Source of the DNA: an uncultured Serinicoccus sp.
GTDB lineage: Bacteria > Actinomycetota > Actinomycetes > Actinomycetales > Dermatophilaceae
Direction: 5' to 3'
DNA length: 64,000 nt
NCBI RefSeq assembly: GCF_947500995.1
Contig: NZ_CANMUA010000001.1
Coordinates: 372,001 to 436,000, forward strand
Under the pieces are notes generated by a model. The model was not told the origin of the DNA and searched no databases. It worked only from the letters and a program-made list of their open reading frames with translations. A program made the position numbers and the translations under genes. Shown here in pieces: positions 29,651-37,353 of the stretch (position 1 is its first letter; each line of letters begins with the position of its first letter).

Positions 29651-31369
29651 ATGCGCGGGCTCAACCTCCATCAGCCTGGACTGAAGAACGACCCCGACTG
29701 GTTCCGCAAGGCGGTCTTCTACGAGGTCCTCGTGCGGGCCTTCGACGACTCCACGGGGTCCGGCTCGGGCGACTTCACCGGGCTGATGAACCGGCTGGAC
29801 TACCTGCAGTGGCTCGGGGTGGACTGCCTGTGGATCCCGCCGTTCTACGCCTCGCCGCTGCGCGACGGCGGGTACGACGTCGCGGACTACACCGCGGTCC
29901 TGCCCGAGTTCGGCACCCTCCCGGACTTCCGTGAGCTCATCAGCCAGGCGCACGCGCGCGGCATCCGCATCATCACCGACCTCGTGATGAACCATACGAG
30001 CGACCAGCACCCGTGGTTCCAGGCCAGCCGCTCGGACCCCGAGGGCCCGTACGGCGACTTCTACGTCTGGTCCGACACCGACGAGAAGTATGCCGACGCC
30101 CGGATCATCTTCGTCGACACCGAGACGTCCAACTGGACCTTCGACCCGGTCCGGCGGCAGTTCTTCTGGCACCGCTTCTTCTCCCACCAGCCGGACCTCA
30201 ACTTCGAGAACGAGGCCGTCGCGGAGGCGATGTTCGACATCGTCCGGTTCTGGATGGACCTCGGCATCGACGGCTTCCGGCTGGACGCCGTGCCCTACCT
30301 CTTCGAGGAGGAGGGCACCAACTGCGAGAACCTCCCCCGCACCCACGAGTTCCTCGCCCGGCTGCGCGCGATGGTGGACGAGGAGTACCCGGGCCGGGTC
30401 CTGCTGGCCGAGGCCAACCAGATGCCGGCCGAGGTGGTCGACTACTACGGCACCCCCGAGGCCCCGGAGTGCCACATGTGCTTCCACTTCCCGGTCATGC
30501 CGAGGCTCTACTACTCGCTGCGCGAGGAGAAGGCCGAGCCGATCGTCCGGGTCATGGAGGAGACACCACGCATCCCCGAGGGGACGCAGTGGGGCACCTT
30601 CCTGCGCAACCACGACGAGCTCACCCTGGAGATGGTCTCCGGGGAGGAGCGCTCGGCGATGTACGGCTGGTACGCCCCCGACCCGCGGATGCGCGCCAAC
30701 ATCGGCATCCGGCGCCGGCTGGCCCCGCTGCTCGACAACTCCCGCGAGGAGATCGAGCTCATCAATGCCCTGCTGCTCTCGCTCCCGGGGTCCCCGTGCC
30801 TCTACTACGGCGACGAGATCGGCATGGGCGACAACATCTGGCTGAGCGACCGTGACGCCGTGCGCACCCCCATGCAGTGGACCCCGGACCGCAACGCCGG
30901 TTTCTCCACGGCGGACCCGGGCAAGCTCTACCTCCCCGTCATCAGCTCGCTGGTCTACCACCACAACAGCGTCAACGTCGAGGCCGAGATGGCCAGCGGG
31001 TCCTCGCTCCTGCACTGGACCCGCGGCATGCTGCAGGTGCGGGCCGCCCACGAGGTCTTCGGCACCGGGGAGTACCTCCCCTGCGAGACGGACAACGACG
31101 CCGTGCTCGCCTTCGCCCGCGCCCTGCCGCCTGGCAGCGACGAGGAGGAGCGCGAGGGCTACCCCGCGGTGCTGTGCGTCAACAATCTGTCCTCCCGGCC
31201 GCAGGCCAGCACCATCACCCTGCCGGAGCGCCTGCACGGGGCCGATGCGCGCGACCTCTTCGGTGGGCACAACTTCCCCGACGTCGGTGCCGACGGCACC
31301 GTCACCCTCAGCATGGGCTCGCGCGGCTTCTACTGGCTGGGCCTGACCCCGAAGGAGGAGCAGCGATGA
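29651..31369 (+). CDS. treS: Maltose alpha-D-glucosyltransferase (trehalose synthase)
   Basis: [67 protein letters not shown]. Confidence 0.97.
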
Positions 31370-34300
31370 CCGACCTCACCCCGTCGTTCGAGGACTTCCT
31401 GCCGGCCTGGGTGGCCCGCCAGCGCTGGTTCCGCGGCAAGCAGGCCGGCGACGCGACGCCGCGGCTGCGCCGGGTCTCCGGCATCCGCTGGCAGGACCCC
31501 TACGGCGAGGTCGGGATCGAGGACCACATCGTGCTCGACGAGTCGGCGTCGTCGTCGGGCGAGGGGCCCACCGTCTACCAGATCCCGCTCACCTACCGGG
31601 CCGAGGCGGTGCCCTTCCTCGCGCACGCGCTGGTGGCCACCGCGGAGCACCCCGAGCTGGGCACCCGCTACATCTACGACGCCACCCACGACCCGGTCTT
31701 GGCCGACGTGCTGCTCTCGGAGATGGCCGCCGACCACGAGGTGCCCGCCGCCCGCTCGCGCCGGGTGGCGCCGCAGGGGGAACGCCCGGCGCTGGCCACG
31801 GCCCGGGTCCTGTCGGGCGAGCAGTCCAACACCTCGATCATCGTCGAGACCCACCGCGGCGGACGGCCGCTCATCATCAAGCTCTTCCGCGTCCTGCACG
31901 AGGGGGACAACCCGGACGTCTCGGTGCAGACCGCCATCAGCCGCGGCGGGTCGGGCCACCGCCTCGTGCCGGAGCCCTTCGGCTACGTCGAGGGACGCTG
32001 GCCCGGCGAGGACGGCCGGGAGGTCCACGGCCACCTGGCCTTCGCGCAGGAGTTCCTCACCGGCACCGAGGACGCCTGGCGTCAGGCCCGGGTGGCCGCC
32101 GACGCCGACGACGACTTCAGCGGGCGCGCCCGCACCCTGGGGGCGGCCACTGCCGCCGTGCACGCCGCGCTGCGCGAGGCCTTCGGGGCCCGCCCGGCCG
32201 ACGAGCGCCGGGCCGAGCTGCTGACCCAGATGCGCGACCGTGCCGAGCAGTCCTTCCGGGACGCGCCGGGACTCGCCGAGCACCGGGACGCCGTGCTCGG
32301 GGTGTATGCCCCGCTGGAGTCCGCGGACCTGCCCGACCTGCAGCGGGTCCACGGCGACTACCACCTGGGCCAGGTCCTCGACGCCCCGGGCCGGGGCTGG
32401 GTGCTCCTGGACTTCGAGGGCGAGCCGCTGCGGCCGCTGGCCGAGCGCACCGAGCCCGACCTCGCGCTGCGCGACGTCGCCGGCATGCTGCGCTCCTTCG
32501 ACTACGCCGCCGCCGCGGCCGCCGACGACCGCAGCCGGTGGGCGGACGCCGCCCGCGAGGCGTTCCTCGAGGGGTATGCCGAGCAGGCGGGGGCCGACCC
32601 CCGCGCCGAGGCCGCCGGCACGGTGCTGGCGGCCCTGGAGCTGGACAAGGCCCTCTACGAGGTCAGCTACGAGGCCCGCAACCGCCCCGACTGGCTGCCG
32701 ATCCCCCTGGGGGCCGTGCACCGGCTCCTGGGCCGCGCCTCCGCTCCCGGCGAGACCCCCGACGCCGGACCCGCCGCGCCGCCGGCCGAGGGCCGTCACC
32801 GCGACACCCCGCAGGAACAGGACCACGAGCAGGAGCACGAGGCGGGGTCCGCCGAGGAGGCGTTCCCCACCGAGGCCGGACGCCACCGCAGCGCCGCCGC
32901 GGTGCCGTCGCCGCAGTCCGAGCAGACGGGTGCGCCCGGCTCACCGCAGGACGCGCACGACACCACCGAGGAGACGACCATGGGTGACGACGACGTGCAG
33001 CAGGACGCCCCGACGGCGCAGGAGCAGACCGCCCCGGAGCCGGGCCCGGCACCGGTCGACGACGACTACGGCTCCTCGCTCATCGAGGTGGAGCGGCACG
33101 ACGGCCCGCTGTCCCACCCGCCGACCGGCGACCCCCGGGCCGCCAGCGGCAGCACGGCCGGCGCCTCCGGCGGGCCGGGCGGTGCGAGCGGCGGCTACCC
33201 GCACGCCCCCATCCCCCCGCCCGAGGACATGGTCATCGAGACGGTGCCCCCCGGCCGGCGGACCGGTGAGGACGTCGAGCTCGCCCCCCGCCCCCGGGCC
33301 GCCGCCAGCGGGTGGTCCGGGCAGCCGCAGGGCGACCCGGAGGTGCTGCGCGCCACCGCGTGGGAGGACGCCAGCGAGGGCGTCGTCACGGCCCGCCCGA
33401 CGGGGCCGCGGCGCTCCCTGAGCGAGCCGGCGGAGCCGGCCGGACCGCATACCCTCCCGCTGGACCTGGACGAGGCGACCGACGTCGTCGAGGGGCTGCA
33501 CCGCAACCCGCACGCCCTCCTCGGCGCGCACGTCTTCGACGACCACGTCACCGTCCGGACCCTCCAGCCCGAGGCGCAGCTCGTCGAGATCGTGCTGGCG
33601 GACGGGGTCAGGGTGCCGATGACGCACGAGACCGGCGGCATCTGGGTGGCGGTGCTGCCGACCGCGACCGTCCCGGCATACCGGCTCAAGGTCGACACCG
33701 GGCGCGGCGCACACCTCGTCGACGAGGCCTACCGGCACGGACCCAGCCTGGGTCAGACCGACCTGCACCTTATCGGCGAGGGCCGTCACGAGGAGCTGTG
33801 GCGGGCCCTGGGGTCCCGGGTCATGACGGTGCGCGACGAGCTCGGCGAGGTCACCGGCACGAGGTTCGCCGTCTGGGCCCCGCACGCCTCGGCCGTCCAC
33901 GTCGTCGGCGACTTCAACGGCTGGAACGGCGCGACGCACGCGCTGCGCGCCCACGACGAGGTCGGCGTCTGGGAGCTGTTCGTCCCCGGCGTCCGCGAGG
34001 GCGCCCACTACAAGTACGACATCACCGGCCCGGACGGCGTCCGGCGGGCCAAGGCCGACCCCATGGCGCGCGCCAGCGAGGTCCCCCCGTTCACCAACTC
34101 GGTGGTCACCGTCAGCACGCACCGCTGGGGGGACGCGGAGTGGATGGCGGCCCGCGCGGCCGGCGACATCCACCACGGGCCGATGAGCGTCTACGAGGTG
34201 CACCTCGGCAGCTGGCGCAAGGGGCTGGGCTACACCGAGATCGCCGACCAGCTCGTCCCCTACGTCGCGCGGATGGGCTTCACCCACGTCGAGCTCATGC

Positions 34301-37300: not shown

Positions 37301-37353
37301 CCCAGGTGCAGGCCGAGGCCCAGCAGGTCGTGGACGCCGCCCTCGGCGGGTAG
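31366..37353 (+). CDS. Predicted fused maltokinase - 1,4-alpha-glucan branching enzyme (GlgB) - phosphoglucomutase (Pgm), 1995 aa
   Basis: Single ORF without internal stop: maltokinase ([26 protein letters not shown]...[12 protein letters not shown]), GlgB ([12 protein letters not shown]..., [10 protein letters not shown]-like, [30 protein letters not shown]), Pgm ([32 protein letters not shown]). ATG overlaps treS stop (ATGA). Confidence 0.9.
32968..32982 (+). promoter_or_regulatory. Internal Shine-Dalgarno plus ATG within the fusion ORF
   Basis: GAGGAG-ACGACC-ATG in frame: 6-nt spacing, just before the GlgB-side linker ([11 protein letters not shown]). Confidence 0.6.

Follow-up and report, generated by a model that had tools for sequence, protein, structure and literature searches.

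The window (the whole 64,000-nucleotide stretch analysed here) contains a run of genes, all on the same strand, in the order glgX–glgE–treS–(mak–glgB–pgm), the last of which encodes in a single chain three enzymes that are usually made as individual proteins (Table 1). Many bacteria use the GlgE pathway to produce glycogen from trehalose. Maltokinase (Mak) makes maltose-1-phosphate for GlgE and GlgB branches the polymer; phosphoglucomutase (PGM) interconverts glucose-1-phosphate and glucose-6-phosphate. Judged by gene order alone, the adjacent and co-directional glgE, treS, mak and glgB make up a GlgE-pathway run. The glgX-type gene at its head is also found upstream of glgE in several relatives, both those with the fusion and those in which pgm is split off. 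The start of glgE is uncertain (GTG at 27543 or 27549). The treS ATG has AGAAGGAGC upstream, and the treS stop overlaps the fusion start, an ATG at 31366 preceded by a strong Shine–Dalgarno (SD) stretch (AAGGAGGAG). Downstream of the fusion lies an opposite-strand gene with a TPR_20 domain. A consensus scan for promoters and terminators in or near the fusion gave no match, which says little at such high GC.

Table 1. Features of the gene run and of the fusion gene, in positions of the window
Feature	Positions	Strand	Residues of fusion	Description and basis
glgX-type debranching enzyme	25319..27538 (start approximate)	+		First of run; Pfam PF02922 (CBM48), PF00128 (GH13)
glgE, maltose-1-phosphate maltosyltransferase	27543..29639	+		Pfam GlgE_dom_N_S and GLGE_C above cut-off
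treS, trehalose synthase	29651..31369	+		Pfam Alpha-amylase and Malt_amylase_C
Maltokinase part	31366..32730	+	1–455	Pfam, PDB, motifs
Linker 1	32731..33453	+	456–696	241 aa, Pro/Ala/Gly/Glu-rich, conserved islands; 18-genome alignment, GC3 0.95
In-frame ATG with GAGGAG upstream	32980..32982	+	539	Candidate internal start for GlgB–PGM without Mak
Short motif ASGG-PHAPvPPP--M	33184..33231	+		In linker 1; PHAP motif in 18/18 derived-clade genomes examined
GlgB part	33454..35628	+	697–1421	GlgB_N, CBM48, GH13 core, C-terminal domain
Linker 2	35629..35691	+	1422–1442	21 aa, acidic; joint, where split relatives have the glgB stop and the pgm start
Alpha-phosphoglucomutase part	35692..37350	+	1443–1995	TIGR01132, Pfam, PDB, motifs

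The fusion is one stop-free frame of 1,995 codons (31366–37353, plus strand) in which Mak, GlgB and PGM each look intact. Translation and domain search agree on this with the initial annotation, which had described a single open reading frame with these three enzymes and had placed its linkers at ~32744–33450 and ~35630–35733, close to where we find them. The domains of all three enzymes score above their Pfam cut-offs: Mak_N_cap (PF18085; residues 15–109), GlgB_N (703–789), CBM_48 (825–901), the GH13 core with its C-terminal domain (up to 1419) and PGM_PMM I–IV (1482–1984). The PGM part also exceeds the curated NCBIfam threshold for alpha-PGM (TIGR01132; 880.7 versus a cut-off of 778). Residues 15–461, 703–1419 and 1445–1994 align near full length with a solved maltokinase (PDB 4u94) and with the solved chains 3k1d (GlgB) and 9v68 (PGM), respectively. 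Mak has the N-terminal cap domain and a kinase-like C-lobe with HGDxHxxQ and DFEG; the corresponding HGDYHLGQ (329–336) and DFEGEP (347–354) are kept in all readable genomes, the other 11 fused ones (below) included. GlgB has its N-terminal and CBM48 domains, a GH13 core with the catalytic Asp/Glu/Asp and the C-terminal domain. Its catalytic motifs are intact in 12 of 12 fused genomes, as are TPSHNP (phosphoserine loop), DADADR (DxDxDR metal loop), GEES and RPSGTE of PGM; the catalytic role assigned to each of these motifs is general knowledge of the families.

Composition by codon position is coding-like across both linkers (GC3 0.95). GlgB and PGM are under strong purifying selection (dN/dS 0.07–0.13) and linker 1 is under moderate constraint (0.36–0.49); linker 2 evolves nearly freely (about 0.65–1.5, on only about 20 codons). 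A 1,079-residue frame on the minus strand (32941–36180) overlaps the fusion and probably results from the GC-richness of third codon positions.

The search for relatives covered 32 genomes (the window and 31 loci) of one genus in the GTDB sense, the one that holds Ornithinimicrobium laminariae. One of them (G016) matches an O. laminariae record without a difference over 14,629 bases, and the window belongs to that genus. The three-way frame occurs in 12 of the 32 (G000, which is the window, G029, G004, G005, G022, G021, G031, G030, G020, G003, G019 and G012), bearing out the initial view of a three-enzyme fusion at the end of a GlgE-pathway run. Its bearing on relatives is mixed: the architecture is shared, but most genomes (20 of 32) keep pgm as a gene of its own directly downstream of glgB, and the joint arose repeatedly (below). 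In split genomes, the glgB stop is usually followed by an SD-like stretch and then by the pgm ATG or GTG, in a context such as ATG GCA CGA CAC (M-A-R-H-E-R-A-G or similar). The fused genomes read, for example, E-G-G-R-H-P-R-A-G at this site and have lost the start codon, and in all 12 the gap between GlgB and PGM is 54–120 nt and a multiple of three; with this recurrence, the feature exceeds what a merely long frame in GC-rich DNA would amount to. That an assembly or sequencing error joined neighbouring genes is conceivable in principle, because four genomes of the set (G009, G015, G017 and G026) carry frameshifts at the locus that resemble draft errors. However, the 12 assemblies are concordant, four of them are single contigs (G004, G020, G021 and G030), and the pgm start codon is replaced rather than frameshifted; the concordance contradicts such an error, the probability of which we consider negligible. 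At loci L121, L124, L141 and L142 at least one gene of the run is frameshifted, probably through draft sequencing errors, so the gene counts of those loci call for caution.

A real frame might still yield separate working products, either by cleavage of a linker or because GlgB–PGM is also made from the ATG at 32980. Linker 1 is long and looks disordered, and the GAGGAG–ATG pair at 32980 is shared by five close genomes (the window, G029, G004, G005 and G022); G021 has a different pair, AAGGAGG–ATG, at a similar place in other sequence. Yet no such pair was found in the fused genomes G030, G031, G003, G019 and G012, the SD-like match may be due to chance given how often GAG GAG occurs in linkers of this kind, and the frame of linker 1 is maintained in every genome that is readable without frameshifts. 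Most fused genomes also lack a start site between GlgB and PGM. The window has no in-frame ATG, GTG or TTG there, and the nearest in-frame start upstream of PGM is 25 codons off, in the conserved end of GlgB and without an SD stretch; a start codon with an SD-like stretch is present in linker 2 only in G012, G020 and G031 (9 of 12 without). Because the pgm start codon is gone and the linker offers no SD-bearing start, PGM can, on sequence grounds, hardly be made alone in most fused species. We regard separate products as rather unlikely.

Linker 1 may be more than a spacer. Its conserved short motifs, above all ASGG-PHAPvPPP--M with its 18/18 PHAP motif, suggest a docking role. The motif was seen in the window and in L112–L130 and L141, is present twice in G031, G003 and G028, and occurs nowhere else in the window. 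Other conserved islands include DPEV-R--AW--A--S--VVTG, in a linker that is otherwise divergent and disordered-looking.

The two joints have different histories. Apart from genomes with too short a contig or with frameshifts, the whole genus encodes Mak and GlgB in a single frame, as does Leekyejoonella. The linker between them has 13 residues in Leekyejoonella, 25 in O. laminariae and 200–316 in the clade of the window. The Mak–GlgB shape, the same as that of the first 1,421 residues of the fusion, is described by the NCBIfam model NF011293 (PRK14705; ‘1,4-alpha-glucan branching enzyme’, 1,224 aa), which the Leekyejoonella and O. laminariae proteins match end to end. Fusion residues 3–460 correspond to model positions 5–475 (Mak) and residues 697–1419 to positions 501–1222 (GlgB); the model has neither PGM nor a long linker, whereas the fusion of the window has both. 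By the curated threshold the fusion is not a member of this family, scoring 1,358.2 bits against a cut-off of 2,376, as is the case for all proteins tested (1,358–1,374 bits). The Mak–GlgB joint is thus old and predates the genus; the GlgB–PGM joint is young and patchy.

In a tree of GlgE plus TreS, split genomes separate the fused ones into four groups, which requires a minimum of four changes. A single fused clade is rejected for GlgE plus TreS (approximately unbiased (AU) test, P = 1 × 10−52), for GlgB (P = 7 × 10−7) and for a 400-residue stretch about the joint (P = 4 × 10−5), and on these tests a single origin of the PGM joint is rejected; with PGM alone, the full set gives a weak rejection (P = 0.051) and the derived clade a stronger one (P = 0.003). 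In the split members of the clade, GlgB ends in a long acidic tail of 87–169 residues, and these tails are homologous within two sets (z = 13–22 among G009, G013, G014 and G017; about 5–8 for most pairs of G001, G015, G024 and G028). These C-terminal tails (L117, L120, L121, L122, L123, L124, L128 and L141) are absent from the fused species. They include a conserved stretch, for example LGDGSTEELAHGELPxDHPFVTEGGQPIDHEERTTVATLD. Relics of the tails were sought in the linkers of fused genomes and no convincing similarity was found. Lineages on either side of the fused ones have the tail, the stop and the pgm start in common, so the split state is likely to be ancestral; the PGM joint most likely arose on at least four occasions, through deletions that removed the tail and, each time, the pgm start codon.

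Recombination complicates the count. The GlgB core of G017 (L121) is 98–100% identical to that of the window, and its GlgE, TreS and PGM group with those of G013 and G014; judged from these groupings, a glgB segment has recombined between species, and recombination does occur at the locus. Given the weak rejection for PGM alone in the full set, a ready-made joint may also have been transferred between some of the fused groups. The PGM of G008 (L129) falls inside the derived clade and its GlgB and GlgE/TreS fall outside, which is likely to reflect a transfer of pgm.

No GlgB–PGM frame was found outside the genus in samples of the order (198 genomes, at least 195 with a PGM match), the class (297 genomes, at least 177 with a strong PGM match) and the phylum, where the search had low sensitivity and few candidates were scored per genome. 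The join was not seen in 13 genomes of other genera of the same family. Among the matches listed for order, class and phylum, the longest PGM frames had no GlgB inside, and a rare case could be missed; long PGM frames in other taxa are GC artefacts. A metagenome-assembled contig labelled Helicobacter cetorum (L010), possibly a mislabelled bin, has adjacent glgB and pgm genes ~50–55% identical to those of the window.

These distributions bear on the main rival to a functional fusion, namely that it is a neutral by-product of operon order: in-frame glgB–pgm deletions would arise now and then and be harmless, with no benefit from position or ratio. Throughout the genus and in Leekyejoonella pgm follows glgB, the short and acidic linker 2 varies almost without constraint, and fused and split species are neighbours in the tree, all as expected for neutral joins. 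However, the join arose independently several times within a single clade of about 20 species, yet was seen neither in the 13 same-family genomes nor in the remaining order-level genomes and the samples of the class and phylum. This hints at an advantage peculiar to the clade, or at a local predisposition, of which the long low-complexity GlgB tails would be an example. We consider neutrality a possible explanation, though a less probable one than a functional fusion.

The benefit of a functional fusion is not obvious, because no two of its steps follow directly on each other. The tether of maltose-1-phosphate polymerization to the glucose-1-phosphate/glucose-6-phosphate pool that the initial annotation proposed is a hypothesis. 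Direct channelling from one fused active site to another is chemically implausible and not expected: the product of Mak goes to GlgE, which is absent from the fusion, and PGM exchanges its substrates with GlgP, GlgC and NDP-glucose enzymes whose genes lie elsewhere. The same genome encodes GlgC, next to a glycosyltransferase gene that could be GlgM or GlgA, as well as an OtsA-type enzyme, several further GH13 proteins and one glycogen phosphorylase, and with these enzymes PGM is the gate for making and using glucose-1-phosphate. Three other phosphohexomutase-family genes are also present and may in part duplicate the PGM activity. Joint expression and attachment to the glycogen particle would be likelier than channelling, and any gain would come from fixed ratio and shared location.

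The explanation that we favour, and hold to be probable, is a genuine fusion that works as a ~210-kDa Mak–GlgB–PGM chain anchored at the glycogen particle and that originated in two stages. In the first, Mak and GlgB would have been joined before the genus arose, after which the linker grew from ~13–25 to 200–316 residues. In the second, in-frame deletions would have removed the glgB stop, the spacer and the start codon of the neighbouring pgm and so joined the two genes; within one clade this would have happened on four or more occasions, or on fewer if recombination spread a joint. GlgB, in the middle and with glucan-binding domains, would anchor Mak and PGM at the particle, and Mak may bring in TreS in the manner of the mycobacterial TreS:Mak complex (PMC6509496). 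Maltose-1-phosphate would then be made beside the substrate of GlgE, glucose-1-phosphate and glucose-6-phosphate would be interconverted at the same site, and the three enzymes would be produced at a fixed 1:1:1 ratio. The stronger reading, that selection on four or more occasions welded the main alpha-PGM to Mak–GlgB to form a particle-bound assembly tying non-consecutive GlgE-pathway steps to the glucose-1-phosphate/glucose-6-phosphate gate, we put forward only tentatively.

The fusion bears on the open question of how GlgE-pathway enzymes are organized in space; a direct GlgE–GlgB interaction has been noted as unknown (PMC11046441). Close relatives that differ in whether PGM is welded on constitute a natural experiment on glycogen and trehalose flux, and on selection versus chance in repeated fusion, and they reveal a clean route from operon neighbours to a single protein. 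Fusions of GlgE-pathway enzymes are already known. TreS–Mak (TreS–Pep2) proteins, for example of Pseudomonas aeruginosa and Estrella lausannensis (PMC11046441, PMC7935935), likewise hold enzymes of the pathway in one chain, whereas in the window Mak is joined to GlgB and PGM and TreS is a separate upstream gene. MalQ–GlgB of Neisseria also joins GlgB to an alpha-glucan enzyme, but with another partner and in an amylosucrase-based pathway (PMC11046441). In glg operons with pgm clustered by glgB, pgm is separate (PMC11046441), and here it is in frame with glgB. The suggestion that the three-way architecture is undescribed holds in part: no description of a PGM–GlgB or Mak–GlgB–PGM fusion was found in the open-licence literature, but the Mak–GlgB half is known from NF011293. 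What is new is the PGM joint only, and what is unusual is its repeated formation within one genus.
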